A stretch of 64,000 bases of DNA from Fictibacillus sp. FJAT-27399 (lineage in GTDB: Bacteria; Bacillota; Bacilli; Bacillales; Fictibacillaceae): assembly GCF_001510655.1 (NCBI RefSeq), contig NZ_LMVC01000002.1, forward strand, positions 877,872 to 941,871, in the 5' to 3' direction. The position numbers were made by a program, and so were the translations under genes. Numbering within the stretch: position 1 is the first letter of the stretch; each line of letters starts with the position of its first letter. The notes under the pieces are model-generated. The model was not told the DNA's origin. It ran no database searches and worked only from the letters and a program-made list of their open reading frames with translations. Below, piece by piece: positions 693-33,511 of this stretch.

Positions 693-851
693 AACCTTAA
701 AAGAGCTCCAACAAGAAGTAAAAGATGCCATTCGCTATTACAATTACGACAGATACCAATGGAATATGAAAAAGATGACCCCTGTTCAATACAGAGATCA
801 TCTTCTTAAAGTAGCCTAGCTTTTTTTACAATGTCCTTTACAAGGGGTACA
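333..851 (+). mobile_element. Internally deleted IS3-family (IS150-like) insertion sequence remnant
   Basis: The element keeps part of orfA (333-692), joined directly to the last 43 codons of orfB (688-819, ending with YRDHLLKVA). It ends with a right terminal repeat that, read inward from 851, begins TGTACCCCTTGTAAAGGAC; the CA end fits the TG...CA rule of IS3 elements. The left end and most of orfB, including the DDE catalytic core, are missing. It cannot transpose by itself. The right end with the following DNA is repeated at 32602. Confidence 0.75.
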
Positions 852-1320
852 GATTAATATGGTACTGAGCTTTTATATATTTTAAGTGTGGCAATCATTC
901 CTCTTTGGTACAGACACCTAACAAGCCCAACCCGGCATACAGATAAGAGTAACGAAAAAAGCCGGGAGGTGTCTGTATGTCCGGGTTGCTAGCCGTGTTA
1001 GCGTACTTTTTCAAAGAGGTAATGCTGTTTGTTTCGTATGTAAAAAACAATGCGTTTCCGCAACCCCTCTCCGAAAATGAGGAGAAAGAATACTTAAAGC
1101 TGATGGCCGAGGGAGATCAGGAGGCCAGAAGCAAACTGATCGAACACAACTTGCGTTTGGTTGCACATATTGTAAAGAAATTTGAAAATACAGGTGAAGA
1201 TACCGAAGATCTGATTTCAATCGGAACCATCGGACTGATCAAGGCAATAGAAAGCTATTCGAGAGGGAAGGGAACGAAGCTTGCGACGTACGCTGCGCGA
1301 TGTATCGAAAATGAGATTCT
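793..1320. repeat. Direct repeat B1 (528 bp), partner at 32602-33129
   Basis: The IS right end, the sigK promoter region and the first 344 bp of sigK are duplicated at an offset of exactly 31,809 bp. Only one mismatch was found by eye, A at 1234 versus G at 33043, a silent change in a Gly codon. The identity ends abruptly at 1320, within the sigK codons for Glu-Ile-Leu. Near identity points to a recent event or to gene conversion. Confidence 0.95.
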
Positions 1321-1393
1321 AATGTCATTACTAAAGCTGTGTTTATATCCTAAATACATAAGAATCCTAAAATTAGGCTCTAATTTTTATTAA
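977..1393 (+). pseudogene. sigK: Truncated duplicate of sigK (N-terminal part)
   Basis: The first 115 residues equal those of the intact pro-sigma-K at 32786: the pro-sequence, the [14 protein letters not shown] processing region, and region 2 with [21 protein letters not shown]. The frame then runs 23 codons into foreign sequence and stops at 1393. Regions 3 and 4 (-35 recognition) are lost. The break lies next to AATGA at 1310-1314, the pentamer known as the crossover site of the skin element in B. subtilis sigK. The promoter region and ribosome binding site (GGGAGGTG) are kept, so a 138-residue protein holding the core-binding region could still be made in sporulating mother cells. Whether it has any function is unknown. 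Confidence 0.85.
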
Positions 1394-1930
1394 GATAACT
1401 GGTGAATTCCTTTAAGATCTTAGCTTCCATCTCAGGCAGCTTTTCTTATTGAGCTAAAGGGCAGGTTAGTTTAAGAATGGTGTCTGTTTTTCTTCAACGG
1501 TCGGGTGCGTTTATTGATCATCAAAAATCTGTTTTTTCATTGTTACAAGAGATAAATCAGGGCAGGTTGAAATTGTGTTTATGTTTTACAAAGGTATTCG
1601 TTTTAGTTTTTAACTGTGTAAATACATGCGCTTTAACAGGTATAAATATATGCACAATCGAATACGGAAGTGAAAACACATGCGCAAATACACATGTGTT
1701 TTTTCCTTAATATATAAGGTCTCAATTGTCTTCATGAATGAATCTTAAATGTATGAAAAGCAATGTACTGGTAAACACATCTCTTTACACATTAAGTAAA
1801 GAGATGTGTTTTATAATGAAAAAAGCAAATCAACAATTGCATGATATGGAAGATACGTTGTACTAGCTGCTTTGTGAGTAATGAAATTTCGTTTTAGCAA
1901 GAAAATAACTCAATGACCTCTCTCTTCTGT
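1321..1930. other. Gene-poor junction segment after truncated sigK
   Basis: No convincing gene is present. A 77-codon frame (1477-1710) has no ribosome binding site and no family resemblance. On the minus strand about 1390-1460 reads as a short tail (KLPEMEAKILKEF), possibly the end of a decayed gene. The AT-rich stretch 1620-1700 has several ACATGCGC or CACATGTG-like words. A 16-codon frame (1816-1866, MKKANQQLHDMED) follows a strong hairpin. If the sigK break is a former skin attachment site, this segment would be what is left of the element end; no SpoIVCA-type recombinase is visible. Confidence 0.4.
1773..1811. other. Perfect 15-bp inverted repeat (hairpin or operator)
   Basis: Arms 1773-1787 and 1797-1811 (AAACACATCTCTTTA and its complement) are separated by 9 bases. 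It is followed directly by TATAATG. It lacks a clear T-run, so it could be an operator or a terminator of a lost gene. Confidence 0.5.
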
Positions 1931-3322
1931 TCAATTAATATTTATGGAAGAAGGGGATTTCATTGGAAAGAGTTTTCCTGGATTTAAGATATGGTTTGGA
2001 TCTAGTAATCTCTTTAGGTCCATCATTACATCAAGAGCATTTCCATGCTCTGCCCGCTGATACCTTATTTTTCCTAGACCTACACCGTGTTCCCCTGTAC
2101 ATGTGCCTCCATGTTGTAAGGCAAATTCTACGATAGCCTTGTTGATCTCATGTGCTTGCTTCCTATCATTGGGGTCATCAGGATCGATGACTAGAAGCGT
2201 ATGGTAATTTCCATCGCCAATGTGGCCAATAACTGCACCATCTATATCGGCCTCTTCCATTTTCTTTCTGGCATGTTCAATGGAATCTGCAAGGCATGAG
2301 AGAGGCACACAGACATCCGTTCCTTCAATATGCTTCCCTGGAGATCCATGCCGAAATGCATAGGATAGGTGATGTCGTGCCTCCCACAGTTTTTTTCTTT
2401 CTTTAGAGTCTGACTCGTAAATAAAATCCACACATGCTTGTTCTTCCGCTATAAGTCTGGTAAACGCTGTTTCCTGCTCTAATCCGTTGTCGTTACCATG
2501 AAATTCTAAGAAAAGAGTGGGCATGACTGGATAGTCTGTCTCTTGAAATCGATTCATCTGTAAGATGGAGCGTGAATCGACCAATTCCATTTTAGCAATG
2601 GGAATGCCGGCAGTTAATATGGAGGTTGCAGTATTTAGGGCTTGTTTTACAGTAGGAAAGGCGGCTCTGGCCGCCATCACACATTCTGGAATACCATAAA
2701 CTTTCAATGTTAGTTCCGTAAATACGCCTAACGTTCCCTCTGATCCCGTAAACAGCCCATTCAAATTGTAACCAGACGATGATTTTGCAGCTTGGCCTCC
2801 AGTATGAATTGTACGCCCATCCGCTAAAACAACCTCTAGATCTCGTACCTGGTCACGCATGATCCCATAGCGTACGGCCGTTGTACCGCTCGCGTTCGTG
2901 GCAGCCATTCCTCCTAAGGTTGCATCAGCTCCAGGGTCTACAGAAAAGAATAAGCCATATTTTTTCAGTTCTTTATTTAACTGCAACCGGGTCACTCCCG
3001 GTTGTACTTTCACACAAAAATCAGAAGGATAAATCTTTAAGATTCGATTCATTAAAGCAAAATCCAGGGTGATTCCTCCCTGAACGGGAATGGCGTGCCC
3101 TTCCAGTCCAGACCCTGCTCCAAATGGAACAACAGGAATTCTGTGTTCATTTGCAAACGATAGAATTCGGCTAACGTCGTTAGAGCTTTTGGGGAAAACG
3201 ACAACATCCGGAAGATGAGGTTCATGGAAGGACTCATCTTGGCTATGTTGTTGAAGAATCGTCAGGTTCTGTGTGACTTGATCAGAAGAAAGGATCTTGG
3301 TTAGCTCCTCAGCAAGAATCAT
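1931..3322 (-). CDS. FAD-binding 2-hydroxyacid oxidase, GlcD / D-lactate dehydrogenase type
   Basis: The 463-residue protein has the PCMH-type FAD-binding domain in its first 220 residues, with the glycine-rich PFGAGSGLEGH loop, and the FAD-oxidase C-terminal domain ending with the family motif GEHGVGLGK. Members oxidise D-2-hydroxy acids such as glycolate or D-lactate and pass electrons to quinone or a partner subunit. The start at 3322 is chosen because AAAGGAGGG lies 6-7 bases upstream; a longer frame upstream lacks a binding site. It is divergent from the ABC importer operon and shares the regulatory region 3323-3463. Substrate is not determined; no GlcE or GlcF partner is nearby, which fits single-subunit D-lactate-type enzymes. 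Confidence 0.85.
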   Translation of the reverse strand: MILAEELTKILSSDQVTQNLTILQQHSQDESFHEPHLPDVVVFPKSSNDVSRILSFANEHRIPVVPFGAGSGLEGHAIPVQGGITLDFALMNRILKIYPSDFCVKVQPGVTRLQLNKELKKYGLFFSVDPGADATLGGMAATNASGTTAVRYGIMRDQVRDLEVVLADGRTIHTGGQAAKSSSGYNLNGLFTGSEGTLGVFTELTLKVYGIPECVMAARAAFPTVKQALNTATSILTAGIPIAKMELVDSRSILQMNRFQETDYPVMPTLFLEFHGNDNGLEQETAFTRLIAEEQACVDFIYESDSKERKKLWEARHHLSYAFRHGSPGKHIEGTDVCVPLSCLADSIEHARKKMEEADIDGAVIGHIGDGNYHTLLVIDPDDPNDRKQAHEINKAIVEFALQHGGTCTGEHGVGLGKIRYQRAEHGNALDVMMDLKRLLDPNHILNPGKLFPMKSPSSININ

Positions 3323-3385
3323 TCCCAGCCCTCCTTTAGTGGATTGATACGCAAAAGTAAATTTGTGAATATACTGAAAATTCTG

Positions 3386-3443
3386 TTTACACCCATAGTA
3401 GCACACTATATAATTTTCTGTATACAGGATTTGGTATACAGAA
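3386..3443 (+). promoter_or_regulatory. Sigma-A promoter with perfect inverted-repeat operator
   Basis: TTTACA (3386-3391), 17 bp, TATAAT (3409-3414) is a near-consensus sigma-A promoter for the importer operon. Immediately downstream, covering the expected transcription start, TTCTGTATAC (3416-3425) and GTATACAGAA (3434-3443) form a perfect 10-bp inverted repeat with 8-bp spacing. GntR/FCD regulators often bind TNGTATACNA-like palindromes, so the GntR gene at 8057 is the likely ligand-responsive repressor (inference). Confidence 0.7.
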
Positions 3444-3463
3444 CGTAAAATGGATGAGGAGGA

Positions 3464-4654
3464 ATGAACTTGAAAAAATGGCGATTGAAAAAGGTTGGAA
3501 TGTGTGGAACAGCAATCTTAGTATTGAGTTTACTCAATGCCTGTGCTCCACCAAAAGGCGCGGATCAAGCATCATCGAGTAAATCATCCGGTTCAAAAGA
3601 GGAGATTAAAATTGGCTTCGTTTCACAGCTTTCTGGCGGCGGAGCATTGTACGGGAAACAAATGGAAAATGGGGCCAAGTTAGCAGTGGATGAGATTAAT
3701 AAGAAGGGCGGCATTTTTGGGAAAAAAATAAAGCTCATTATCCAGGATGATCAGGCCAATCCAAGTGAATCCGTAAAGGTGACCCAACGGTTAGTGACAG
3801 AGGATCGCATCAATGCATGGATTGGAACCCTGAAGAGTTCGGATACCTTAACGGATATCGGAATTACCTCCAAACAAGACATTCCTAGTTTTGTCCCTGT
3901 GGCGGTTGCAAACTCCATAACAGAATCTGACTATACCAATGTCTACCGAAACGTAGCCAACAACTCCATGCAGGCCAAGATGTTCGTAGACTACATATTG
4001 AAGAAACAGCCGCATAAGAAGCTTGCAATCATTGCTGAAAATACAGATTACGGAAGAGGGCTGTCTGAAGATTTTAAAAGATTCTTTGAAAAAGGTGGCG
4101 GGGAAATTGTTAACGTTGAATATTACAACGTTGGACAAAAGGAATTTAACGACCAATTGACAAAAATTAAGGGCAAGAAACCAGACGGGATTGTCATCAG
4201 TGGACTTGTCGCCGAAGGTGCTCTTGTTTTAAAACAGGCCCAGGATTTGGGTATGAAAACACAATGGTATAGCTTTGGCGGTTTTAGTGGAGCGGCGCCT
4301 ATTAAGTTAGCCGGAAAAGCGGCAGACGGTATGATTCATACCGAGTATTTCACGCCCATTAAAGGGGACAAAAAGATTGAGACGTTTGTAAATGCTTATA
4401 AAACCAAATTTGGTGACAAACCCGATGCTTATTATTCCGCGGCAACTTATGATGCGGTAAACCTGTATGCAGAAGGAGTTAAAAAGGCAAAGACATTAGA
4501 TAACAAAAAAGTGAATGACGCACTTCACTCCATCAGTAATTATCAGGGTGTCATGGGAAGCATTTCGTTCCAGGAAGACGGACAAGCCACCACAAAAGTT
4601 TGGATGGCACAAATCAAAGATGGTGCACAAACGGTTATTTTCCGTCCAGAATAA
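3464..4654 (+). CDS. ABC transporter substrate-binding lipoprotein, branched-chain amino acid type
   Basis: The 396-residue precursor has a Lys-rich n-region, a hydrophobic segment and a lipobox LLNAC (Cys about residue 27), so it should be a lipid-anchored extracytoplasmic receptor. The mature part is a type I periplasmic-binding fold of the LivJ family (IGFVSQLSGGGALYGKQ near the start, then a long segment with ENTDYGRG). It captures an amino acid or related amide for the permease genes that follow. GAGGAGGA precedes the ATG. It is the first gene of the importer operon, directly under the operator at 3386-3443. The real ligand may be other than leucine, isoleucine or valine. Confidence 0.88.
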   Translation: MNLKKWRLKKVGMCGTAILVLSLLNACAPPKGADQASSSKSSGSKEEIKIGFVSQLSGGGALYGKQMENGAKLAVDEINKKGGIFGKKIKLIIQDDQANPSESVKVTQRLVTEDRINAWIGTLKSSDTLTDIGITSKQDIPSFVPVAVANSITESDYTNVYRNVANNSMQAKMFVDYILKKQPHKKLAIIAENTDYGRGLSEDFKRFFEKGGGEIVNVEYYNVGQKEFNDQLTKIKGKKPDGIVISGLVAEGALVLKQAQDLGMKTQWYSFGGFSGAAPIKLAGKAADGMIHTEYFTPIKGDKKIETFVNAYKTKFGDKPDAYYSAATYDAVNLYAEGVKKAKTLDNKKVNDALHSISNYQGVMGSISFQEDGQATTKVWMAQIKDGAQTVIFRPE

Positions 4655-4676
4655 ATTACTTTTACAGGAGGCAAGG

Positions 4677-5549
4677 ATGGTTGAATTTGCGCAGACTCTT
4701 GTTAATGGGCTCGTTTTAGGAGCCTTGTATTCACTGGTTGCTTTGGGATTAACATTGATTTATGGAGTGATGGGCTTGGCCAATTTTGCACAAGGGGAAT
4801 TTGCGATGATTGGAGGATTCAGCGCTTTTTTCCTTGTTCAAGAAGGTGTGTCCTATCCGCTGGCCGTAATCATCGGTTTTGCAGTGGCAGGAATCATAGG
4901 ACTGCTCGTACATCTTTTAGCGTTTTATCCACTGCGGCAAAGCAATCATATTAATATGATGCTTAGTTCATTAGGGGTTTCTCTTTTCCTGGTCAATCTT
5001 GCTCAATATTTATTCTCTCCTAACCCTCAGGTCGTAAAAAGCCCTTTATCTGGAGAAAGTTTTAACCTGGGAGGCATCTTTATTTCGCAGCAGCGGGTGT
5101 TAATTGTGGTTATTAGCTTTATTCTGTGTTTGGCCACGTTCCTATTGTTAAAACATACAAAATTTGGGCGTTCCGTTCAAGCCGCTTCTCTTGATCCTGA
5201 TACAGCGACACTTTATGGGGTCCCAACGAAACGAATATCCTTCATGACCTTCATATTGGGAGTGGCGTTGACGGGTATCGCCGGCGCATTGCTTGCTCCT
5301 GTTTATAATGTGTATCCCACCATGGGAATTTCCCTTACTTTAAAGGCATTCGTGGTAGTGGTTCTTGGAGGGATGGGAAATGTATCAGGTGCGATCGCCG
5401 GAGGAGTTATTGTAGGGCTGATTGAGAGCTTTGCCGGGGGCTACATTTCGACCGGTTTTCAGGATGCCATCGTGTTTACGGTTTTATTTGTAGTCCTAAT
5501 TTTAAAACCTCAAGGGATTCTTACCAAAGTGCAGGGGGAGAAGGTATGA
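4677..5549 (+). CDS. livH: Branched-chain amino acid type ABC permease LivH
   Basis: This is a 290-residue integral membrane protein with about eight hydrophobic segments and the LivH signature near the N-terminus (ALGLTLIYGVMGLANFAQGE). It forms the membrane channel with LivM. The start at 4677 follows AGGAGG by 7 bases; an in-frame extension upstream lies inside the binding-protein gene in another frame and is rejected. It overlaps livM by four bases (ATGA), so the two subunits are probably translationally coupled. Confidence 0.9.
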   Translation: MVEFAQTLVNGLVLGALYSLVALGLTLIYGVMGLANFAQGEFAMIGGFSAFFLVQEGVSYPLAVIIGFAVAGIIGLLVHLLAFYPLRQSNHINMMLSSLGVSLFLVNLAQYLFSPNPQVVKSPLSGESFNLGGIFISQQRVLIVVISFILCLATFLLLKHTKFGRSVQAASLDPDTATLYGVPTKRISFMTFILGVALTGIAGALLAPVYNVYPTMGISLTLKAFVVVVLGGMGNVSGAIAGGVIVGLIESFAGGYISTGFQDAIVFTVLFVVLILKPQGILTKVQGEKV

Positions 5550-6553
5550 ATCGGAACCGGATCCTGTTTTGGACGTGTATTCTTGTAGGAATGATCTGTA
5601 TCCTATCTAGCCTGTATTTGCAAAACCTTTATATTTTGCGCGTAGCGGTTTTTGCAGTCATTGCGGCCATGCTAGCGGTAAGTGTGAACCTTCTGGTGGG
5701 TTATACAGGTCAGGTCTCACTCGGACAAGCTGGGTTTTATGGCATAGGTGCATACACGGTCGGCCTTTTGACCACACAATGGCACTGGTCCTTTTGGCTG
5801 GCCTTGTTAGCTGCTTTCATTTTGACAAGTCTTACCGGGTTAATTCTAGGATTGCCTACCACGCAGCTTAAAGGGCACTTCCTGGGGATAGCAACACTTG
5901 GTTTTGGGATTATTGTCAATGTGATTTTTAACAACTGGACATCGTTAACGGGTGGACCCAACGGAATAAGAGGAATAGCTCCACCGGAGTTGTTCGGTAT
6001 TTCATTACAGTATGAGAACTACTTTTTAGGGTTTTCCCTTTTTTGTTTAATGGTGGTTGTGTTAATGGTTCATCTCGTGGTTAATTCAGCCATCGGGAGA
6101 GCGTGGAAATGTATTCGGCATGATGAAATATCTGCACAAGTGAGCGGGATCAATGTTTACGGTTATAAACTCATGGCGTTTTCCTTAAGTGGGGGGATTG
6201 CTGGGATAGCAGGCGGTCTTTATGCGGGATTCATGACGTTTATCAGTCCGGAAACGTTTGATTTAAACCAATCCATTACCATTATCACGACGGCCATTCT
6301 CGGGGGGCCAGGTACGTTGTTTGGTCCATTAGTGGGAGCAGGGGTATTGACCGTTCTTAGTGAATCTCTGAGGGCTTTAAACGAACTTCGCCTCATCATA
6401 TACGGAGCGATTCTTGTAACTGTTATCGTTTTCCTTCCAGAAGGAATCTATCCCTTTATCAGTAAGAAATTGAGAAAAAGGGGTATTGCGTCCCAACTAA
6501 AGTTAAAGGACCGTAGGAGGGAATTGGATGAGCAAGATTTTAGTCAAAGCTGA
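5546..6553 (+). CDS. livM: Branched-chain amino acid type ABC permease LivM
   Basis: The 335-residue membrane protein has the LivM hallmark YTGQVSLGQAGFYGIGAYT near residues 50-75 and a C-terminal segment typical of the family (GGPGTLFGPLVGA). It pairs with LivH in the cytoplasmic membrane. The C-terminal 30 residues are highly charged. Its end overlaps the start of livG by 26 bases. Part of the operon that starts at 3464. Confidence 0.9.
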   Translation: MNRNRILFWTCILVGMICILSSLYLQNLYILRVAVFAVIAAMLAVSVNLLVGYTGQVSLGQAGFYGIGAYTVGLLTTQWHWSFWLALLAAFILTSLTGLILGLPTTQLKGHFLGIATLGFGIIVNVIFNNWTSLTGGPNGIRGIAPPELFGISLQYENYFLGFSLFCLMVVVLMVHLVVNSAIGRAWKCIRHDEISAQVSGINVYGYKLMAFSLSGGIAGIAGGLYAGFMTFISPETFDLNQSITIITTAILGGPGTLFGPLVGAGVLTVLSESLRALNELRLIIYGAILVTVIVFLPEGIYPFISKKLRKRGIASQLKLKDRRRELDEQDFSQS

Positions 6554-7301
6554 ACAGGTATCTGTAAAATTTGGTGGACTCTGGGCGGTTAAAGAAGTGG
6601 ATGTGGACGTAAAAGCGGGTGAGATTCTAGGAATTATCGGTCCCAACGGAGCAGGAAAGTCCACATTGTTGAATGTATTGACTGGCCTACAGCGGCCATC
6701 TGCGGGGCAGATCCAAATAGATAACGGATATGTTTCCAAGAAGGACGCCTGGCAAATGGTGAAAATGGGGATCGGCCGCAGTTTTCAAACCATTCGTCTT
6801 CTCAACGAATTGACAGTGATCGAAAATTTATTAATCGGAGGACATTTATATACGAAACGGGGATTACTTGACGTTTTGGGTAGGACCGTTCGATGGAGAA
6901 AAACGGAACAGCAAATCACCAATAAAGCAATGGAACTTCTGCAGCTGCTGGGGATTGGGCATAAAGCGCAGGAAGAAATAAGTGCCCTTTCCTTGGAGGA
7001 GAGAAGAAGGGTTGAGATTGCGAGGGCTCTTATGACTCGCCCGAAGGTTCTTTTGCTCGATGAACCGGGCGCAGGATTTAGTCCGCAAGAATCCGATCAA
7101 TTATGCGAACTTATTCTCTCCATTCGAAATCGTGGGGTCTCTGTTGTTCTCGTTGAACACAATATGAAGGTCATTATGTCATTAGCTGATCGAATCATCG
7201 TGCTCGACCACGGACAAAAAATTGCAGATGGCACACCGAAGGAGATTTCTGAAGATGAGTTGGTCATTCGGGCTTATTTAGGAGGGGAAGACCATGCTTG
7301 A
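6528..7301 (+). CDS. livG: ABC transporter ATP-binding protein LivG, with unusual signature motif
   Basis: The 257-residue ATPase carries Walker A (GPNGAGKST), a Q-loop region (GRSFQTIRL), Walker B (VLLLDEPGAGF) and the switch histidine (VLVEHNM). The ABC signature, usually LSxGQ or LSYGQ in LivG proteins, reads LSLEERRRVEIARAL: the conserved Gly-Gln is replaced by Glu-Glu. As LivG and LivF act as a heterodimer with one or two composite sites, one degenerate signature may still allow transport. The start at 6528 has GGAGGG upstream. The gene overlaps its neighbours on both sides. Confidence 0.88.
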   Translation: MSKILVKAEQVSVKFGGLWAVKEVDVDVKAGEILGIIGPNGAGKSTLLNVLTGLQRPSAGQIQIDNGYVSKKDAWQMVKMGIGRSFQTIRLLNELTVIENLLIGGHLYTKRGLLDVLGRTVRWRKTEQQITNKAMELLQLLGIGHKAQEEISALSLEERRRVEIARALMTRPKVLLLDEPGAGFSPQESDQLCELILSIRNRGVSVVLVEHNMKVIMSLADRIIVLDHGQKIADGTPKEISEDELVIRAYLGGEDHA

Positions 7302-8001
7302 GATCCAAGGATTACGGAGCGGTTATGGCGACATTACTGTGTTACAGGGTGTTAGCTTGAATGTAAACTCAGGGGAAATCGTGGGGATTTTAGGAGCTAA
7401 TGGGGTGGGTAAAACCACCTTATTAAAAACCATTTCCAATTTAATAAAAACACGTGCCGGAACGATAAACTATCAGGGGAAAAACTTAACGCAAGTCCCG
7501 CCATCTAAACTCCTCAATCTTGGGATCGCCCATGTTCCTCAGGGCAGGAACATTTTCTCTAAGATGACAGTGGCTGAGAATCTTTACGTCGGGTTAGACA
7601 ATGTAAAAAAAAGAGTCAACCCACAAGAACAGCTGGATTATGCCTTAGAGTTATTTCCTAAGCTTAAGGAAAGATGGAATCAACTCGGTGGAACGTTAAG
7701 CGGGGGAGAGCAGCAGATGCTGGCGATCGCGCGAGCACTCGTGACAAAACCCACCTTGTTGATCCTAGATGAACCATCGATGGGCTTAGCTCCTATCATT
7801 GTCAGATCCGTATTTAACGCGGTAAAGAAAATTGCACAAGACGGGACTACGATATTATTGGTGGAGCAAAATGCTGTGGCAGCTTTAAATGTAATTGATC
7901 GGCTTTATGTCATGGATATGGGAAGAATGGTTTATGAATCCCAAGAAATGAATGATAACGAATTAGAGAAAATCAAAGAGGTTTATCTAGGTGCAGGGTA
8001 A
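7294..8001 (+). CDS. livF: ABC transporter ATP-binding protein LivF
   Basis: The 235-residue ATPase has Walker A (GANGVGKTT), a canonical signature (LSGGEQQMLAIARAL), Walker B (LLILDEPSMGLAP) and a switch His replaced by Gln (LLVEQNA), as is normal for LivF. It overlaps livG by 8 bases and is the fifth gene of the importer operon. A 55-bp gap separates it from the regulator gene downstream. Confidence 0.9.
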   Translation: MLEIQGLRSGYGDITVLQGVSLNVNSGEIVGILGANGVGKTTLLKTISNLIKTRAGTINYQGKNLTQVPPSKLLNLGIAHVPQGRNIFSKMTVAENLYVGLDNVKKRVNPQEQLDYALELFPKLKERWNQLGGTLSGGEQQMLAIARALVTKPTLLILDEPSMGLAPIIVRSVFNAVKKIAQDGTTILLVEQNAVAALNVIDRLYVMDMGRMVYESQEMNDNELEKIKEVYLGAG

Positions 8002-8056
8002 TTACAAGTGTTGAAGTCGACTGACGATAAGCAGGGAAGGACAGGAGTGAGACAAT

Positions 8057-8728
8057 ATGCTGAAAAAATTAACTCAATCAGAAACATTGGCAGAAAAGGC
8101 ATATCGTGAAATCAAGCAGGCCATCATCGAAGGGAGGTTTTCTCCAGGTGAACATTTACCCGAGGAAGCGATCGCTTCGATGTTAGGTATTAGCAGGACT
8201 CCTCTAAAAAAAGCCATTGAAAAACTATCATATGAAGGTTTAGTAGATTTGCGCTCCGGAAAGATCGCTCGAGTGGCGGAGTACACCCCCAATGATATCG
8301 AAAACTTTCTGCAGCTGCGTGTGCTGTTGGAGCCCTTCAATGTTGAACAGATTGTTAGAATACCAATCTCGGAGGAGAAGATGAGCGAGCTTGTTGAATT
8401 GGTGGAAGAACAGAAAAAAGCCATTGAAGATAACGATTTGTACCAATTTATTCAGCTGGATGCCGAATTTCACCTTTCATTAGCGAAGCTGAATCCAAAT
8501 CAAAAACTCCAGCAATTTATTGAACAACTGAACAATAACCTCCATCGCCGGTATCTAATACTGTCAAAGACATTGGAGTATGGTTCCAAAACGGCATACG
8601 AAGAACATGTATCCATTTTAAAGGCCCTTCAAAAAGGAAATCCAGAGGAAGCGGGTAGAGCGATGAAAACACATATCCAGAACGTTGAAAACAGGATAAG
8701 AGGGTATCAAGCTTCCTCTTTACACTGA
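8057..8728 (+). CDS. GntR-family transcriptional regulator, FCD subfamily
   Basis: The 223-residue protein has an N-terminal winged helix (AYREIKQAIIEGRFSPGEHL and then ISRTPLKKAIEKL) and an all-helical FCD effector domain with candidate metal or ligand residues (LDAEFHLSL, THIQNV). FCD regulators sense small organic acids and usually repress neighbouring catabolic genes. It lies between the importer and the aminotransferase, 55 bp after livF and 19 bp before the next gene, so it is probably co-transcribed and autoregulated through the palindrome at 3416-3443 (inference). Confidence 0.88.
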   Translation: MLKKLTQSETLAEKAYREIKQAIIEGRFSPGEHLPEEAIASMLGISRTPLKKAIEKLSYEGLVDLRSGKIARVAEYTPNDIENFLQLRVLLEPFNVEQIVRIPISEEKMSELVELVEEQKKAIEDNDLYQFIQLDAEFHLSLAKLNPNQKLQQFIEQLNNNLHRRYLILSKTLEYGSKTAYEEHVSILKALQKGNPEEAGRAMKTHIQNVENRIRGYQASSLH

Positions 8729-25847: not shown

Positions 25848-25902
25848 ACAGTTTTTGCAAAGATGGCAACTAAAGTTGTAGCCGCCTAAATATACCACAA
25901 GT

Positions 25903-25961: not shown

Positions 25962-25963
25962 AA

Positions 25964-26075
25964 AGCTCCCAATAGAGGGAGCTTTTTCAATGGTCAACTA
26001 ATTTTAAAATTATTTTCTGTTTCCCACAAATAATGGACATGTATGCCATCTACAAATGACCCGTCAAGCACAATC
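25964..26075 (-). repeat. Gene-tail repeat copy 2 (partner 15551-15665)
   Basis: The better-preserved copy. On the minus strand it reads IVLDGSFVDGIHVHYLWE and ends with NNFKIS and a stop at 25994, followed by a GGGAGCT hairpin terminator. No upstream part of the gene is present, so it is a fragment. The remaining bases to 26380 hold no gene. Confidence 0.6.
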
Positions 26076-26380
26076 ATCTCTTACATCATTCAATTAATCT
26101 TTAACTTAAATGGAGAAATTTATCTAATGAAAGAAAAAAAGCTTCAAAATGAAAAACAGAAGGGTTCGTAAGAACTCCTTCTGGGGATTTTTAAACCGGA
26201 CATTTTGGTGAAGTTTTTACCGGCCTTGACATAATCCCTTAAACTGCATGATTGGAAAACTTTTTACCGTTAATAAACAAGATTCATATATTTACAATAT
26301 TCGAAGTTTTCAGTATAATTTATTCAATACGTTTAATATATTTTAAACAAATTGAACAAATTGAAGGGGAGGGAGTTGTA

Positions 26381-27547
26381 TTGCCGTTTGAAAAGTGTGA
26401 ATTTAAAATCCGATTAAATAAGACTAAAATTGAGATGCAAAAGAGAGGAATCGAACTTTTGATTAGCACGAATCCGGCTAACATAAATTATCTATCAGGC
26501 TATGATGGTTATTCGTTTTATGTCGTCCAAGGGCTGGTGGTACTGTTGGATGAACCAGAACCCATCTGGATTGGAAGGAATATGGATGTTCCTGGTGCTT
26601 TGTTTTCCACGTGGTTAAGTGGAGAAAATATACGAGGATATGAAGATGATTATTTTCAGTCAGACACCAAACATCCGATGCATTTTTTTGCTGATATTTT
26701 AAAAGAGCGAGGGATAACCAACCAAAGGATCGGGCTCGAATGGGGCCAAGATTCCTTTAATGTTACATCTTATAATGAATTGCAAAAAAAGATGCCCGAT
26801 TGTAAGTTTACCGATGCATCATTTCTAATCAATCAAGTGAGAATGATTAAATCGGAAACAGAGATTAACTATATGAAAATAGCAGGTAATATCACTGTGA
26901 ATGCTATGAAGGTTGCCATCGATGCAATTGGCGAGGGAATGAGGGAATCTGATGTAGCGGCAGACATCTATCAGACCTTAATCAGAGGCACGGGTGAATA
27001 TGCTGGAGACTATCCAGCGATTATTCCATTATTGTCTTCTGGTGAGAAAGTATCAGCTCCACATCTATCATGGACGAACCGTCGTTATAAAAGAGATGAT
27101 ATTGTTTCTATCGAGTTGTCAGGTTGTTTGCATCGTTATCACACACCATTAGCAAGAACGATATACATAGGAGCTCCCTCACAAGAATACATGGACATTG
27201 TCAATGTCGTACAAGAAGGCTTAAATAACATGCTAGAATTCATAAAACCGGGGATCACGTGCGCTGAGGTTGCGGAAGAATGGAATAAAGTATTATCTCA
27301 ATCGAGCGTTACGAAGGAATCCCGAGTCGGTTACCCCATTGGAATCGGCTATCCGCCCGATTGGGGTGAACAGACCGTAAGTATTCGTGCTGGTGATACA
27401 AGTATTTTACAAAAGAACATGACCTTTCATGTTCTCCCTGGTCTCTTTCAAGCAGAAATTGGGTTTGTGGTAAGCGAATCGATAAGAATAACAGAAAACG
27501 GATGTGAACTTCTAACCAATCTATCTAATGACTTAATTGTTAAATGA
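26381..27547 (+). CDS. Ectoine hydrolase-like protein of the M24 (pita-bread) family
   Basis: The 388-residue protein resembles ectoine hydrolase DoeA along its whole length: YLSGYDGYSFYV near residue 45, ESDVAADIY, GDYPAIIPLL, and the C-terminal YPIGIGYPPDWGE and MTFHVLPG. DoeA opens ectoine to N-acetyl-diaminobutyrate. At the place of the metal ligands of M24 peptidases the protein reads SIELSGCLHRYHTPLART, without the two Asp, so like creatinase and DoeA it is a non-metallo hydrolase rather than an Xaa-Pro peptidase. The TTG at 26381 is chosen because GGGGAGGG lies 7-8 bases upstream; a longer frame starts in AT-rich DNA. Function stays an inference. Confidence 0.7.
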   Translation: MPFEKCEFKIRLNKTKIEMQKRGIELLISTNPANINYLSGYDGYSFYVVQGLVVLLDEPEPIWIGRNMDVPGALFSTWLSGENIRGYEDDYFQSDTKHPMHFFADILKERGITNQRIGLEWGQDSFNVTSYNELQKKMPDCKFTDASFLINQVRMIKSETEINYMKIAGNITVNAMKVAIDAIGEGMRESDVAADIYQTLIRGTGEYAGDYPAIIPLLSSGEKVSAPHLSWTNRRYKRDDIVSIELSGCLHRYHTPLARTIYIGAPSQEYMDIVNVVQEGLNNMLEFIKPGITCAEVAEEWNKVLSQSSVTKESRVGYPIGIGYPPDWGEQTVSIRAGDTSILQKNMTFHVLPGLFQAEIGFVVSESIRITENGCELLTNLSNDLIVK

Positions 27548-27712
27548 ATCGAATCGTTAACGGCAAATCGGGACAAAGCGTTTTCTCCCCTATTTATGGT
27601 CGTATGTTTATTGATATGAAATAAAAGCATGAGTTCAAGAAAACAAGTTAACTGTATGCTGTACCACCCTTAAGATGTTTAACTAAAATAAACTTTCGAA
27701 GGAGAGGTATCA

Positions 27713-29308
27713 ATGAACAAAAGCCGTAAGCTTATCTCACTACTGATGATTCTGTTGCTTAGCTTCTCGCTAGCTGCGTGTTCAAGCAAGAGATCAAACA
27801 GTGAACAAACGGGTTCGAAAGGCGTTTTCATTTTTGCGCGTGGAGGAGATGCCGTTTCCCTGGATCCTTCAGAAGTCACTGACAGCGAGTCAGAGAATGT
27901 TTCTCAGAGTATTTTAGAAACACTAGTAACCTTTGCTGAAGGGAAAACCACCGTTAAACCTCTATTGGCAACGAAATGGTCCATGTCAGATGATGGCTTG
28001 ACCTACACATTCAAACTTCGTAAAGGGGTAAAATTTCAGGATGGAACAGATTTTAATGCCAAAGCCGTCGAGTACAATTTCAACCGCTGGATGAATGCAA
28101 AAGACCATGACAAATTTTACATGTATGGTTCAGTTTTTGGCGGCTTCAGCGGTGATAAAAATCATGCCATTGAAGCAGTGGATGCGGTTGATCCCCATAC
28201 CGTTACATTTAAATTGAAATATCCAAAACCCACATTTTTAAAAGATCTTGCATTAACCCCATTTTCTATTTCTAGCCCTTCAGCGATTAAGAAACAAGGA
28301 GATAAATATGGCAGTCATCCAGTTGGAACGGGTCCATTTATCTTTAAAGAATGGAAACGAGACGATCGAATAGTATTATCCAAAAATAAAAATTATTGGT
28401 TAAAAGGATTTCCAAAGCTGGATCAGGTCATATTTCGAACCATCAAAGAAAACAGTGCACGCTTAAATGCATTACGGAGTGGGGAAGTCGATATGGCGGA
28501 CGGACTTGATTCTGGGAATATTGAACAAATTCAAAACAATAAAGATTTTCAAATTTTGAATAGACCTCCTCTTAACATTGGATATTTAGGGTTTAATGTA
28601 AAAAGAAAACCATTCGACAATAAGTTGGTTCGCCAAGCGCTAAATATTGCTGTAGATAAGAAAGCAATGATCAAATCATTTTTTGCCGATCAGGCGATTC
28701 CCGCGAAAAACCCAATTCCGCCTACGATCGATGGCTACAATAATGAGATAGATGCTTATCCTTATGACCCTCAAAAAGCAAAAGCTCTATTAAAAAAGGC
28801 GGGTTATCCGGATGGTTTTAAAATGGAATTATGGGCTATGCCTGTATCTCGTCCATATATGCCTGATGCCGACAGAGTGGCTGAATTCCTGCAGTCAAGC
28901 TTTGAAAAAATCGGCGTTAAGGCAAAAATAGTCACCTACGAATGGGGCACGTACCTAGATAAGGTAAAAGGCGGGGAAGCTGATTCATTTCTTCTTGGAT
29001 GGACAGGCGCTAACGGAGATGCGGATGACTTCATTTACACGTTATGGCATGAAAAAAACATTGGAAGCATGAATTCAACCTTCTATGCGAATAAGGAACT
29101 AAATAGCCTGTTAGATGAAGCAAGAACAAGTATAGATCAAGAAAAGCGCAAACAGCTCTACCGTCGAGCACAAGAAATCATGCACGAGGATGCGCCGATT
29201 CTTCCATTAGTTCATACAACACCCGCGTTGGCAGCTAGAGCGGATATTACTGGTTTCGATCCCCATCCGACAGGAAGAGTCATTACAACAAAGATTGCAT
29301 TCAAATAG
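27713..29308 (+). CDS. Peptide-type ABC transporter substrate-binding lipoprotein (SBP family 5)
   Basis: The 531-residue precursor has a lysine-arginine n-region, a hydrophobic core and lipobox LAAC (Cys about residue 23), followed by the family 5 fold (GGDAVSLDPSEVTDSES, VKFQDGTDFNAKAVEYNFNRW, ADDFIYTLWH). Family members bind oligopeptides, nickel, or other solutes. AAGGAGAGG precedes the ATG. No permease or ATPase gene is within the window, so the protein is an orphan that must borrow a transporter or act as a sensor. It sits between the DoeA-like and M20 genes. Confidence 0.88.
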   Translation: MNKSRKLISLLMILLLSFSLAACSSKRSNSEQTGSKGVFIFARGGDAVSLDPSEVTDSESENVSQSILETLVTFAEGKTTVKPLLATKWSMSDDGLTYTFKLRKGVKFQDGTDFNAKAVEYNFNRWMNAKDHDKFYMYGSVFGGFSGDKNHAIEAVDAVDPHTVTFKLKYPKPTFLKDLALTPFSISSPSAIKKQGDKYGSHPVGTGPFIFKEWKRDDRIVLSKNKNYWLKGFPKLDQVIFRTIKENSARLNALRSGEVDMADGLDSGNIEQIQNNKDFQILNRPPLNIGYLGFNVKRKPFDNKLVRQALNIAVDKKAMIKSFFADQAIPAKNPIPPTIDGYNNEIDAYPYDPQKAKALLKKAGYPDGFKMELWAMPVSRPYMPDADRVAEFLQSSFEKIGVKAKIVTYEWGTYLDKVKGGEADSFLLGWTGANGDADDFIYTLWHEKNIGSMNSTFYANKELNSLLDEARTSIDQEKRKQLYRRAQEIMHEDAPILPLVHTTPALAARADITGFDPHPTGRVITTKIAFK

Positions 29309-29431
29309 AGAGTGGCGCTGGGAAATGAGAGAGAGGGGCGGCTTCTTGGGAGTAGCCCTTCTATCTCTAAATGAAATAGTTTTAAAAAGTTCTCATCAAT
29401 GGTAATTAAGGAGCAGAAGGGAGTTTTACCC

Positions 29432-30598
29432 TTGTTACAAAAAACATTTGATCACCTAGAACGAATCTATACCGAAATGGTTGGAATACGAAGAGATTTA
29501 CATATGAACCCGGAACTTTCCTTTCAAGAGATAAGAACCTCTGAGTTTATCGCCAATTATCTTAAAGATATAGGTTTAGAGGTGAGGACTAAAGTGGGCG
29601 GTCATGGGGTTGTCGGCTTTTTGAAAGGAGGTAAGCCAGGTAAGACGATTGCTCTTCGTGCTGATTTTGATGCTTTGCCGATCACGGATGAAAAAAATGT
29701 TCCATATAAATCTACGGTTCCCGGAGTAATGCATGCATGTGGTCACGATATACATACAGCAGCTTTACTTGGAGTAGCGAACGTACTGAGCCATGTGAAA
29801 GATGACATTGAAGGAAATGTAGTTTTTATTCATCAGCATGCTGAAGAGCTTGCACCGGGTGGAGCAAAAAGCATGATTGAAGATGGATGTTTAGTAGGGG
29901 TTGACGCTGTATACGGAGCACACGTTGAAGTGAATTTTCCTATTGGCCAAGTGGCCCTTAACGATGGATACGTTCATGCAGCTTCAGATGCATTCAATAT
30001 CACCATTTATGGCAAAGGAGGGCATGGTGCAGAACCTCATCGTTGTATTGATCCTCTTGTGATTGGGAGCCATCTGGTAGTCAACTTGCAAAATATCGTG
30101 AGCAGACGTGTTGATCCTCTTCAACAGGCACTGGTTACTGTAGGTTCGTTCCATAGCGGAGACGCTCATAATGTCATACCAGATAAAGCCTATTTGAAGG
30201 GAACGGTAAGGACCTATGATCCAGTTGTAAGACTTCAGGTAGAGAAGGAGCTCACGCTGATCGCTCAAAAAACGGGGGAACAACATGGGGCTGAAATCGA
30301 AGTGAATTATACAAAGGGTTATATATCACTGTATAATCATCCGAAGGAAACAGAATTTATCAGGAAACTATCAACTGAGATTGTGGGAGAAAAAAATGTA
30401 ACCATTAAACTACCGGATATGGGTGGAGAAGACTTTGCTTATTATGTGGATGCTGTACCAGGTACATTCTTCTGGGTAGGTGGAGGAAATCCTGATCTCG
30501 ATGCGATATACCCGCATCATCATCCAAAATTTGATGTCGATGAGAAATCAATGATCATTATAGGCAAAATATTCATCTCAGCCGTTCTAAATAGTTAA
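29432..30598 (+). CDS. M20D-family amidohydrolase / deacylase
   Basis: The 388-residue enzyme has the zinc motifs of M20 family proteins: HACGHDIHTA, the catalytic Glu in HQHAEE, and GGEDFAYY, with a dimerisation domain in the middle (GKGGHGAEPH). Relatives remove acyl groups from N-acyl amino acids (for example N-acetyl-diaminopimelate deacetylase, hippurate hydrolase). Beside a DoeA-like hydrolase it could deacetylate N-acetyl-diaminobutyrate, in place of the unrelated DoeB (inference). TTG 29432 follows AAGGGAG by 7 bases; the ATG at 29399 has no binding site. Confidence 0.82.
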   Translation: MLQKTFDHLERIYTEMVGIRRDLHMNPELSFQEIRTSEFIANYLKDIGLEVRTKVGGHGVVGFLKGGKPGKTIALRADFDALPITDEKNVPYKSTVPGVMHACGHDIHTAALLGVANVLSHVKDDIEGNVVFIHQHAEELAPGGAKSMIEDGCLVGVDAVYGAHVEVNFPIGQVALNDGYVHAASDAFNITIYGKGGHGAEPHRCIDPLVIGSHLVVNLQNIVSRRVDPLQQALVTVGSFHSGDAHNVIPDKAYLKGTVRTYDPVVRLQVEKELTLIAQKTGEQHGAEIEVNYTKGYISLYNHPKETEFIRKLSTEIVGEKNVTIKLPDMGGEDFAYYVDAVPGTFFWVGGGNPDLDAIYPHHHPKFDVDEKSMIIIGKIFISAVLNS

Positions 30599-30725
30599 AA
30601 GGTATTTTCACTTTCAAACCCTGACTCCATTGCCAATCTATTGCTTTACAACAAATTTTTTATACTGTAGATTAATTTTATAGATTCATGAATTTTAAGT
30701 TTTGACAGCAAAGGTGGGAAACCGC

Positions 30726-31280
30726 TTGAATGAACAATTTAAAAAGGCGAGAGACCGAATCATTGAGCATAACTCTGAAAATCAGACATTATTTGGAATG
30801 AATCATACGGTTAAACGTTTAATGTCCGTAATGTATTATTATGAAAAATCCATGACATTAGATGATATGACAGAGCTTCTTGGGATGAGCAAAGCCAGTA
30901 TGAGTAACTCTGTCAGGGAACTGCTCGATATCGGGTTGGTGGAAAAGGTATGGAAAAAAGGAGAACGTAAAGATCTATATAAGGTCGAAGAGGATAATTA
31001 TCAAAGCTTCATTAAGTACTTTTGTTATCATTGGCGAAAAATATTAACGCTTAAATTAAACCCTATGAAAAAATCAATCGATGAATTAAATGAGTTATTA
31101 GGGAATGAAGGATTAGACGTGGAAACAAAAGCGTTGATAGAGAAAGATTTAGAGAAGCTGTATGCCGGCCTCGAATATATGAATTGGCTCGGCCGTGTCG
31201 TAACCTTGTTTGAATCCCAAGAGATTTTCGAATACATTCCAAAAACTCTAGAGAACAATAAATCGAAAAGTTTAGATTAA
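30726..31280 (+). CDS. GbsR/MarR-type transcriptional regulator
   Basis: The 184-residue protein has a winged-helix domain (LDDMTELLGMSKASMSNSVR) followed by a helical part with the pattern of the GbsR family, whose known members in Bacillus (GbsR, OpcR) repress choline and glycine betaine uptake genes. Length fits GbsR (about 180). TTG 30726 is chosen because AAAGGTGGG lies 7 bases upstream. It closes the osmolyte-like cluster, so regulation of the DoeA-like and SBP genes by a compatible solute is plausible. Confidence 0.8.
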   Translation: MNEQFKKARDRIIEHNSENQTLFGMNHTVKRLMSVMYYYEKSMTLDDMTELLGMSKASMSNSVRELLDIGLVEKVWKKGERKDLYKVEEDNYQSFIKYFCYHWRKILTLKLNPMKKSIDELNELLGNEGLDVETKALIEKDLEKLYAGLEYMNWLGRVVTLFESQEIFEYIPKTLENNKSKSLD

Positions 31281-31341
31281 GGGCCATTAACACCAGTGAA
31301 TGGAAAGTAGTGCTAATGGCTTCAAGAGAACAAATGAAAGC

Positions 31342-31382
31342 AAAGGCATCCATATCAATCTTGGATGCCTTTACCTTTTTCG
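31342..31382 (+). terminator. Terminator after the GbsR-type gene
   Basis: AAAGGCATCCA (31342-31352) and its complement (31362-31372) form an 11-bp perfect stem, followed by ACCTTTTTC. 31383-31857 holds no gene; it contains the promoter and leader of the cold-shock gene. Confidence 0.8.
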
Positions 31383-31857
31383 TTTGAACGTTTTTTTATA
31401 CGTTGGGGAAAAAAACCCTCGTTTGTTAAAACACTACGAAATGCATTAATTTAGAATCAAACTACTTTAGTTTTCTTCTTTTGCCCAAAAGCTCCGCGGC
31501 TCTTTTTGCGAGTAGATAAAAGAAACAAGTTCATGAAAAAAATTTAAAATTTGCAATTAAATGAAAAGTCGGTTTTGCTTCTAAATCTCAGCAGGGTTTT
31601 AGATACCAGGGCTATTCTTTGGCTGTCTGGATTTGAAGGAATAGGTTAAACGAAGGTCATAATATAACGTTGGTTATAAATATTATTGGTACCTATTTTC
31701 TTTTGCCTTGGTTTCACTTCTATTTTCTGTTAAAATAAAAAAGAATTATTTTTGTTCGGTGTAAAAGCAGTTTAAGTATTCGACTTTTCATCTTGATGAT
31801 CACTTTGGGCAAGAATAGTAACATTTTGTGTGTTTGACGCACTAGGAGGAAATAATT

Positions 31858-32058
31858 TTGGAACAAGGTACAGTTAAATGGTTTAATGCAGAAAAAGGTT
31901 TCGGATTTATCGAACGCGAAGGTGGAGAGGACGTATTCGTTCATTTCTCTGCTATCCAATCTGAAGGTTTCAAATCATTAGACGAAGGTCAAAAAGTTAC
32001 TTTTGACGTTGAGCAAGGTGCTCGTGGACCTCAAGCTGCAAACGTTCAAAAAGCATAA
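31858..32058 (+). CDS. Cold-shock protein (CspA/CspB family)
   Basis: The 66-residue protein has both RNA-binding motifs, KGFGFI and DVFVHFSA, of the cold-shock OB fold and the [11 protein letters not shown] start. It binds single-stranded RNA and DNA as a chaperone. The start is TTG at 31858, 7 bases after AGGAGGA; there is no in-frame ATG. The protein begins MEQGTVK instead of the common MQGTVK. Confidence 0.93.
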
Positions 32059-32070
32059 TAAATTATATAA

Positions 32071-32106
32071 AAACAGGTCCTTTTTAAAAGGATCTGTTTT
32101 TTTGTT
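32071..32106 (+). terminator. Terminator of the cold-shock gene
   Basis: AAACAGGTCCTTTT and AAAAGGATCTGTTT pair with one wobble, followed by a T-run. Confidence 0.85.
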
Positions 32107-32120
32107 TAAAAAAGTACATT

Positions 32121-32149
32121 AAAAAACCCGCTCAACGCAAGAGCAGGTA
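32121..32149 (-). terminator. Terminator of the broken Mom-like gene
   Basis: On the minus strand ACCTGCTC and GAGCGGGT pair around a short loop and are followed by TTTTTTA, 55 bp beyond the stop of the gene tail at 32204. Confidence 0.65.
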
Positions 32150-32203
32150 AATGGTACAAGTAAAGTGAGGCTCGTTTAAATGGTTTAACTCAGTATAGCA
32201 TAG

Positions 32204-32363
32204 CTATTGAAGATTTCCTAATTTAGGTACGTTAACCAAGGGGAATTTGCGATACATTTCTTTCAGCCGCTCTTCAATTGCTAGCGCATTAGCATAGATA
32301 TCGATTGCCTCATAAACCTCACCGGCTTTCGCTGTTTGAGCAGCATGCTCCAGAAGGGCAGAG
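32204..32363 (-). pseudogene. C-terminal tail of the Mom-like phage gene
   Basis: The minus-strand frame carries the end of the same protein as at 1-332 (EVYEAIDIYANALAIEER) and adds LKEMYRKFPLVNVPKLGN before the stop at 32204. Only about 53 codons remain; upstream it is joined, out of frame, to a DUF4236 fragment at 32363/32364. Bases 32268-32363 are the repeat shared with 4-99. Confidence 0.6.
32268..32363. repeat. Direct repeat A2 (96 bp), partner at 4-99
   Basis: Same sequence and orientation as 4-99, offset 32,264 bp. The offset differs by 455 bp from that of repeat B because the DNA between the two repeats differs in the two places. Confidence 0.9.
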
Positions 32364-32601: not shown

Positions 32602-32660
32602 AGAGATCATCTTCTTAAAGTAGCCTAGCTTTTTTTACAATGTCCTTTACAAGGGGTACA
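32602..32660 (+). mobile_element. Right end of an IS3-family element
   Basis: Only the last six codons of orfB and the right terminal inverted repeat (ending at 32660 with GGGGTACA) remain. It marks the left limit of the long repeat and truncates the DUF4236 gene. Confidence 0.7.
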
Positions 32661-32719
32661 GATTAATATGGTACTGAGCTTTTATATATTTTAAGTGTGG
32701 CAATCATTCCTCTTTGGTA

Positions 32720-32756
32720 CAGACACCTAACAAGCCCAACCCGGCATACAGATAAG
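32720..32756 (+). promoter_or_regulatory. Possible sporulation-type promoter of sigK
   Basis: CATACA (32745-32750) resembles the -10 element shared by sigma-E and sigma-K promoters, with an AC-containing -35-like word about 17 bp upstream. In B. subtilis sigK is transcribed by sigma-E and then by sigma-K. The same sequence lies before the truncated copy (936-941). Confidence 0.4.
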
Positions 32757-32785
32757 AGTAACGAAAAAAGCCGGGAGGTGTCTGT

Positions 32786-33511
32786 ATGTCCGGGTTGCTA
32801 GCCGTGTTAGCGTACTTTTTCAAAGAGGTAATGCTGTTTGTTTCGTATGTAAAAAACAATGCGTTTCCGCAACCCCTCTCCGAAAATGAGGAGAAAGAAT
32901 ACTTAAAGCTGATGGCCGAGGGAGATCAGGAGGCCAGAAGCAAACTGATCGAACACAACTTGCGTTTGGTTGCACATATTGTAAAGAAATTTGAAAATAC
33001 AGGTGAAGATACCGAAGATCTGATTTCAATCGGAACCATCGGGCTGATCAAGGCAATAGAAAGCTATTCGAGAGGGAAGGGAACGAAGCTTGCGACGTAC
33101 GCTGCGCGATGTATCGAAAATGAGATTCTTATGCATTTGCGTGCGTTAAAGAAGACCAAGAAAGATGTTTCTCTTCATGATCCGATCGGTACCGATAAGG
33201 AAGGCAATGAAATCACCTTGATTGATGTCCTGAAAGCGGAAACCGAGGATGTCGTCGATGCCATTCAGCTGAAAATGCAGAAAAAGAAAATCTATGATTA
33301 CATTCATGTTTTGGATGATCGGGAGAAAGAAGTCATCGTCGGTCGGTTCGGACTGGATCTTCAGAAGGAAAAAACACAGCGGGAGATCGCGAAAATGCTG
33401 GGAATCTCCAGGAGCTATGTATCAAGGATTGAAAAGCGGGCCTTAATGAAACTGTTTCATGAGTTTTACCGAAGCCGGCAGCAGGGGCAGAAAGAAAAGC
33501 CCTCCTATTAA
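32786..33511 (+). CDS. sigK: RNA polymerase sporulation sigma factor sigma-K precursor
   Basis: The 241-residue protein matches B. subtilis pro-sigma-K almost throughout: about 20-residue pro-sequence before [14 protein letters not shown], region 2 ([17 protein letters not shown]), the uninterrupted [19 protein letters not shown], and region 4 ending with [16 protein letters not shown]. It directs late mother-cell transcription after cleavage by SpoIVFB. GGGAGGTG precedes the ATG. The skin site AATGA is intact and uninterrupted here, so no rearrangement is needed to make active protein from this copy. A terminator follows. Confidence 0.96.

Follow-up and report, generated by a model that had tools for sequence, protein, structure and literature searches.

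A putative orphan attL of a skin-related element beside an intact sigK gene in Fictibacillus sp. FJAT-27399

The skin element of Bacillus subtilis splits the sporulation gene sigK and encodes a large serine recombinase (SpoIVCA/Skr), and its excision restores the gene (PMC6957869); the skin core comprises five nucleotides (PMC13141910). In Clostridioides difficile, skinCd uses a serine recombinase together with a directionality factor, and its attL and attR sites contain inverted repeats (PMC5025042). Phages also use sigK as an integration site, as described for Alicyclobacillus MMB025 and Clostridium perfringens phiS63 (PMC13141910), and gin, a non-phage element in gerE of Bacillus cereus ATCC10987, carries serine recombinases and is described as lacking structural genes for conjugation (PMC5595907). 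In the portions available of these four papers, the elements of sigK are described as phages or phage-like (PMC6957869, PMC5025042, PMC5595907, PMC13141910). Here, a 64,000-nucleotide window of Fictibacillus sp. FJAT-27399 (the whole stretch of DNA that was analysed, C6:877872-941871 of genome G000, which comprises 4.5 Mb in 13 contigs) is compared with these systems. It contains a 31.8-kb accessory segment between a truncated and an intact sigK, and the truncated copy reads as an orphan attL, one of a series of sigK scars in the genus.

The locus resembles the described systems in part. Genomes G006 and G028, two relatives, share with skin the layout of a sigK gene split by an element with its own recombinase, although these elements carry conjugation genes. 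The window differs from skin in that it keeps attL only, no recombinase or attR was found, and sigK is whole without excision. For skinCd, sigK 5' scars are not mentioned in the available parts of the source (PMC5025042), nor are duplicated sigK 5' halves in those of the report on the sigK phages (PMC13141910), whereas gin is similar in occupying a sporulation gene but resides in a different one. In a search of the open-access literature, with subscription papers outside its scope, neither arrays of sigK scars nor conjugative elements in sigK were reported, and nothing was found on Fictibacillus together with sigK. Skin-type elements raise the question of how a host lives with, or escapes from, an element that disables sigK after its recombinase has decayed. 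The scars are a readable record of past interruptions and suggest a testable escape route.

The repeat end and the putative attachment site in sigK

The segment is bounded by two direct repeats of 528 bp, named copies A and B, that lie 31,809 bp apart and are identical at 527 positions (Table 1). Their ends are exact, as neither side can be extended by one base, and the sole difference, at repeat position 442 (window 1234 A versus 33043 G), exchanges GGA for GGG and is silent. A first-pass annotation of this DNA had described near-identical direct repeats with a broken and an intact sigK in the order broken copy, cargo, intact copy; alignment confirms the repeats, and the layout stands, with the cargo flanked by truncated and complete sigK frames. 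Its reading of the repeat ends was incomplete, however, having missed that the 3' end has the form of a site-specific recombination junction, that another scar ending in this way is present upstream, and that scars occur in five of seven Fictibacillus genomes.

Four comparisons bear on the 3' end. First, a partial third copy, scar C (C6:756220-756480), is located 122 kb upstream and covers repeat positions 268-528 (261 bp) with two differences. Scars A and C depart from the intact gene at the same base, and both run on with AATGTCATTAC, four partly differing bases and GCTGTG; random breakpoints would not produce this common end point and continuation. Second, the 17-base arm that follows the inferred core, GATTCTAATGTCATTAC, is exact at A and C, has no further match with fewer than three mismatches in C6:700-960 kb, and is also exact at the attL of split sigK genes in G028 and G029. 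Third, the three intact sigK genes of G001 (Fictibacillus enclensis) and G005 read GAAATCCTCATG or GAGATCCTTATG after GAAAAT, whereas their scars read GAGATTCTAATG, exactly in three of six cases and with one base off in the remaining three. Because intact genes and scars differ there, what follows the GA core derives from the element; copy A reaches six bases beyond the inferred core since in the window GATTCT occurs by chance in both the intact gene and the arm. Fourth, a mirror arm, GTAATGACATTAGAATG, precedes the sigK 3' half in G006 and G028, with a serine recombinase gene just before the arm. The two arms mirror each other such that a 36-base site composed of them differs from its own reverse complement at four positions, all central, and a whole near-palindromic attP with two arm mismatches (by eye) is present in G030 (C85:28479-28900, L235), ~30 bp downstream of a sigK 5' half.

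The repeat reads as ending at a serine-recombinase attachment site in sigK, and the site composed of the two arms has the architecture to be expected of a large-serine-recombinase attP. Its core is probably the GA of codon 113; that of the B. subtilis skin is AATGA. Since the arm follows the core in copy A and the mirror arm stands at the attR of split sigK genes in relatives, copy A appears to be an orphan attL and copy B the intact gene. As in skin-type elements, a sigK 5' half is thus joined to an element arm at the attachment core. A plain segmental duplication with a chance breakpoint in sigK would also produce two near-identical copies, but it is contradicted by a breakpoint and foreign arm that are common to scars in several genomes and to split genes, and it is hardly credible.

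The arm was compared with a reversed control. Allowing at most one mismatch, 20 matches occur in 11 of 34 family genomes versus none for the control, and with at most two mismatches there are 23 matches in 7 genomes versus 4. Several of the two-mismatch matches, including all four of G003, lie off sigK and are likely due to chance. Of 23 viral loci, three (L165, L169 and L172) have the arm or the mirror arm at sigK, with three or four mismatches, L164 and L173 have a related mirror arm (by eye), and L164, L169, L173 and L179 encode a recombinase 53–66% identical to that of G006. As viral loci carry the arm or its mirror too, the arm does not distinguish a phage from a conjugative nature of the lost element.

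The other parts of such an element were not found. At the far end of the segment there is no attR with a sigK 3' half, copy B being intact; the mirror arm has no match with fewer than three mismatches in C6:700-960 kb, and the only close sigK 3' part listed for G000 is that of the intact gene. The segment has no large serine recombinase gene, as whole-genome searches with PF00239 and PF07508 show none near sigK, and tblastn with the G006 recombinase in three pieces returned nothing in the window (E up to 0.01). A Pfam scan covered 21 of the 32 listed open reading frames (ORFs; at least 100 aa) of the segment, and all 21 matched; no conjugation or replication gene is among them, and PF12642 (TcpC) is absent from G000.

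An assembly artefact, in which the 5' copy is a collapsed or misplaced repeat, must also be weighed. To the left of copy A there are scaffold joins, namely single n bases at C6:877365 and 877871 flanked by k-mer-sized duplications of 99 and 96 bp, which would fit such an error; the right-hand junction of copy A is untouched by them. However, the copies differ by one base and in their flanks, F. enclensis has the right-hand junction of A as well (225 bp spanning the junction, 90.7% identity) and G004 that of C, and the arm matches those of split sigK genes. An artefact is very improbable.

Table 1. Features at the two sigK copies (window coordinates)
Feature	Position	Strand	Content or basis
IS3-type orfA remnant 5' of copy A	333..692	+	Pfam HTH_Tnp_2 (PF20310) and by eye
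Repeat copy A	793..1320	+	IS3-type element tail, sigK promoter region, sigK codons 1-114 and 2 bases of codon 115
Truncated sigK frame	977..1393	+	first 116 residues as SigK, next 22 foreign, then stop
Inferred GA recombination core of putative orphan attL, sigK codon 113	1313..1314	+	attL, attR and intact sigK of relatives compared
Element arm GATTCTAATGTCATTAC, P' half site	1315..1331	+	exact at scars of G000, G001, G002, G004 and G005
Sequence common to F. enclensis (G001) scars	1332..1471	+	similarity search
Cargo: FAD oxidase, branched-chain amino acid ABC transporter, GntR, aminotransferase, OsmC, nitrilase-like, acetoin-dehydrogenase-type operon with sigma-54 activator, peptidases, peptide-binding protein, MarR-like	1472..31595		Pfam
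Cold-shock gene (csp) with upstream region and start of reverse-strand gene	31596..32363	.	csp named by eye from translation
Repeat copy B	32602..33129	+	sequence comparison
Intact sigK, 241 aa	32786..33511	+	NCBIfam TIGR02846, 374 bits (cut-off 298.65)
Inferred GA core in intact gene (attB)	33122..33123	+	sequence comparison

Scars and split sigK genes in related genomes

Twelve orphan sigK 5' fragments, some very short, are present in five of the seven Fictibacillus genomes: two in G000, two in G004 (one of them 390 kb from sigK), three each in G001 and G005, and two in G002. One of those counted in G005 holds only some 26 bp of sigK (by eye), and the G002 pair is on a contig unlinked to sigK; the attL of G006 and a degraded scrap on contig C4 of G004 were left out of the count, and G003 has no scar at sigK. 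The twelve scars do not equal twelve independent events, because flanks are common between genomes, those of C with G004 and those of A with two scars of G001. By SigK, the closest named relative is F. enclensis NIO-1003 (95% identity). Window 1321-1471 is 97% identical to G001:C1:1989102-1989252 and window 1321-1429 is 96% identical to 2031925-2032033 of the same contig, with shorter matches elsewhere; from about position 1396 onward, the second half of the sequence shared by the F. enclensis scars has additional matches at other sites of the genus and is possibly a dispersed repeat. An orphan attR end is a rare find, with one seen, on G004:C4. G001 and G005 lack the recombinase family PF07508; in G000 it does not occur near sigK, and on G004:C4 the gene is broken. 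A 63-bp piece of recombinase-like DNA is found near the scars of G005.

Genome G004, listed under the species of the window, allows a rough dating. Its intact sigK differs from that of G000 by 3.5% over 853 bp, compared with one difference in 528 bp between A and B, so the A/B identity is younger than the split of the two genomes and arose by duplication or conversion. G004 is without the A-B segment, and its scar C is separated by 63 bp from the end of the left flank common to both genomes and by 15 kb from the intact gene. In G000, the same flank is followed by a 56-bp piece of the sigK promoter (C6:731740-731795, from a search of the own genome), 24 kb of other DNA and then scar C.

Several relatives retain the interrupted state. 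No full-length sigK was found in G006 or G028; as in skin, the gene is split and a recombinase gene lies beside attR. The two SpoIVCA-like serine recombinases are 502-528 aa in length (528 aa in G006) and 80–81% identical to each other. In G028, the gene is split by 41.4 kb in one gap-free stretch (C1:2436001-2477466, L227-L229). The G006 halves are on two contigs, with 89 kb from attL rightward to the contig end and ~3.6 kb to the left of attR; the element extends from G006:C8:1467664 onward (L140, L194-L197), and the whole contig end is presumed to be part of it. G014 and G020 also have only a split sigK, with halves about 30 and 33 kb apart.

Integrative and conjugative elements of the ICEBs1/Tn916 type form the comparison class for the elements of G006 and G028. 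Both encode, in a common block, replication proteins, a coupling protein, TcpC, a VirB4-type ATPase and a lysozyme-like cell-wall enzyme, which together with the integrase are among the genes expected of an integrative and conjugative element; no relaxase family was found among the scanned part of their ORFs. Of 73 G006 ORFs, 16, including the recombinase, have counterparts in the G028 element, and 13 of these form a single colinear block. TcpC (PF12642) occurs in 4 of 12 genomes, once each at the sigK element of G006 and G028 and on other contigs in G005 and G030. Unlike ICEBs1 and Tn916, these putatively conjugative elements sit in sigK and use a SpoIVCA-like recombinase. Further genes of the G028 element include a restriction-modification pair. 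Of 12 ORFs scanned in the roughly 50 kb rightward of the G006 attL, 10 have a Pfam match and 8 of these are enzymes or transporters, so accessory cargo beside attL, as in the window, is also seen in G006. The two relatives suggest that conjugative elements, in addition to phages, land in sigK, which would link gene transfer to spore development.

More broadly, sigK may in this family be an integration site of conjugative elements that repeatedly lose their recombinase, with the host escaping through a fresh sigK 5' half. Each such cycle would leave an attL scar and captured genes and so enlarge an accessory zone of 150 kb, in which the 528-bp repeats would permit recombinase-free loss or movement of the 31.8 kb with sporulation left intact. 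This broader picture is tentative.

Three further sigK arrangements were observed. In G029 (C7:450059-461780, L230), the only sigK found consists of halves in opposite orientation, the 3' half on the minus strand and the 5' half with attL on the plus strand, with a recombinase gene between them and flanks colinear with G028. Recombination of the two sites would invert 11.3 kb and rejoin sigK, making this a possible inversion switch. F. enclensis contains two complete sigK genes ~6 kb apart with a short scar between them (G001:C1:1983366-1990229, L141). In G002 (C46:230115-252959, L146, L147), sigK is interrupted elsewhere, near codons 63-66 (by eye), by a stretch of some 22 kb that carries two other large serine recombinases.

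Proposed restoration of an intact sigK

The origin of copy B is suggested by a second block of identity, 505 bp in length, upstream of both repeats (C6:877366-877870 = 909730-910234). With the csp start codon (31859) begins a perfect match of the csp region to the unit that precedes copy A, whereas left of this codon 231 of 251 aligned bases agree, plus gaps. Identity that begins at the csp start codon is a pattern of exchange between csp paralogues and favours unequal homologous exchange. The stretches between the csp unit and the repeat differ between A and B, and one copy therefore changed afterwards. A copy of the end of the 505-bp block also stands behind the scaffold join (window 4-99 = 32268-32363, 96/96), and the truncated tail of an IS3 orfB (by eye) extends into the start of the repeat in copy A.

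In the proposed history, a skin-related mobile element encoding a SpoIVCA-like large serine recombinase would have entered sigK at the GA core of codon 113, splitting the gene. What stayed would be the left end of the element and, judging by position, the 31.8 kb of accessory cargo, and the recombinase, right end and attR would have been lost. The intact gene was most likely restored beside the right core flank through one homologous exchange between csp paralogues on two chromosome copies, one interrupted and the other with the element excised; the csp-IS3-sigK 5' unit would thereby be duplicated and joined to a whole sigK. A single csp exchange of this kind yields the order broken copy, cargo, csp, intact gene, and another cycle would leave scar C 122 kb upstream. 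The attL structure, the absence of recombinase and attR and the common csp unit are observed, and the interruption of sigK is well supported, while the exchange, the extent of the element's cargo and the order of events are a plausible reconstruction. As a whole, an orphan attL of a skin-related element with sigK restored next to it by exchange is the likely account. The Campbell-type integration or unequal duplication proposed in the first-pass annotation survives in part: homologous exchange is supported by the csp unit, although that proposal lacked the site-specific junction and the series of scars. Its argument that exchange between A and B would remove 31,809 bp and leave sigK whole stands as logic.

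Two other routes concern the repair step only. In one, a circle (a plasmid or looped-out DNA) already bearing a sigK 5'-attL junction, the scar having been made in another molecule or genome, would have integrated into the sigK 5' region by a Campbell-type crossover. This route accepts copy A as attL and yields the same layout, and a 192.5-kb contig of G004 (C4, L137:9700-13852) with a Rep3 initiator and iterons offers a parallel: on it are the remnant of a recombinase gene, an attR-like end and, ~2 kb from the replication gene, a sigK 3' half, together with a degraded 5' scrap. However, the scanned segment ORFs include no replication gene, megablast of window 793-25700 (about three quarters of the segment) against 72,556 plasmids gave no match, and the csp unit accounts for the exchange with no need of a circle. 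A circle and an exchange between sister chromosomes cannot be told apart by sequence, and integration of a circle is possible but rather doubtful. A plasmid origin of the segment was likewise not borne out by a distant blastn search with window 1321-9000, in which 20 records gave short ABC-transporter or FAD-oxidase matches only. Two 'plasmid' records with an intact sigK (B. subtilis SRCM104011 and B. licheniformis pBL141-1) were dropped as they are linear and have chromosomal genes around sigK.

In the other route, the recombinase would have died and the sigK promoter and 5' half would have been copied from attL onto attR, restoring sigK in place. G004 is suggestive of this, as a recombinase gene with a large internal deletion (end by eye) is positioned ~0.1 kb upstream of the intact sigK promoter, the expected place of attR. 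Yet the window has no recombinase remnant in the tblastn search described above, and the few bases common to attL and attR would give such copying little guidance. Repair of the half gene in place is unlikely for the window. A route by recombinase alone to attL plus an intact sigK was rejected, as it would leave an attP between them, and none is present in C6:700-960 kb.

Several observations weigh against restoration by csp exchange beside a former element. The csp junction at copy A falls on the scaffold joins, the identities of the scars to the intact gene show no clear age order, and some arm matches are away from sigK, for example G014:C11:740205. The segment is without recombinase or attR and the scanned ORFs include no transfer gene, so the cargo is tied to the former element mainly by its position; larger parts of the cargo match loci away from sigK in other genomes, and their separate arrival is possible. 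In G004, the intact sigK directly follows the shrunken recombinase gene, a different repair junction, and thus more than one repair route may exist.

Cargo and flanks of the segment

Nearly all families among the scanned segment ORFs belong to transport, metabolism, peptidases or regulation. G006:C9:420-428 kb matches window 1918-10028 at 98% identity; for the acetoin-type operon, identity is 92% to G006:C9:92-100 kb and 78–79% to loci of G001 and G005 some 400 kb from sigK. Window 11145-12755 and 13809-14764 recur at 96% in G001:C1:2015.7-2018.4 kb, between two F. enclensis sigK scars. Because parts match separate places in other Fictibacillus genomes, the cargo is a mosaic that in part belongs to the scar zone of another species, and not a single island. 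The left side of copy A is not core genome, as a further 122 kb of accessory DNA extends to scar C. A sample of 56 ORFs of this stretch, each 250 aa or longer, matched 81 families; among the 25 listed, most concern metabolism or transport and none is a recombinase or conjugation family. The right flank of the segment has the families Nramp (mntH), YqeH, shikimate dehydrogenase and ComEC.

The one large serine recombinase gene found by the whole-genome searches, at C6:1310027 (506 aa; L008), was considered as the missing enzyme and rejected, as it is 400 kb away and directly follows a truncated permease-like gene (GntP-like by eye); it perhaps belongs to another gene-interrupting element. Just right of scar C is a reverse-strand ORF rich in serine and lysine runs with internal tandem repeats (L003:1939-2466, C6:756.7-757.2 kb). 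Within the segment, a dispersed two-part repeat of ~117 bp occurs at window 15549-15665 and 25962-26076, its two parts being 90% and 100% identical, and is also present in G006.

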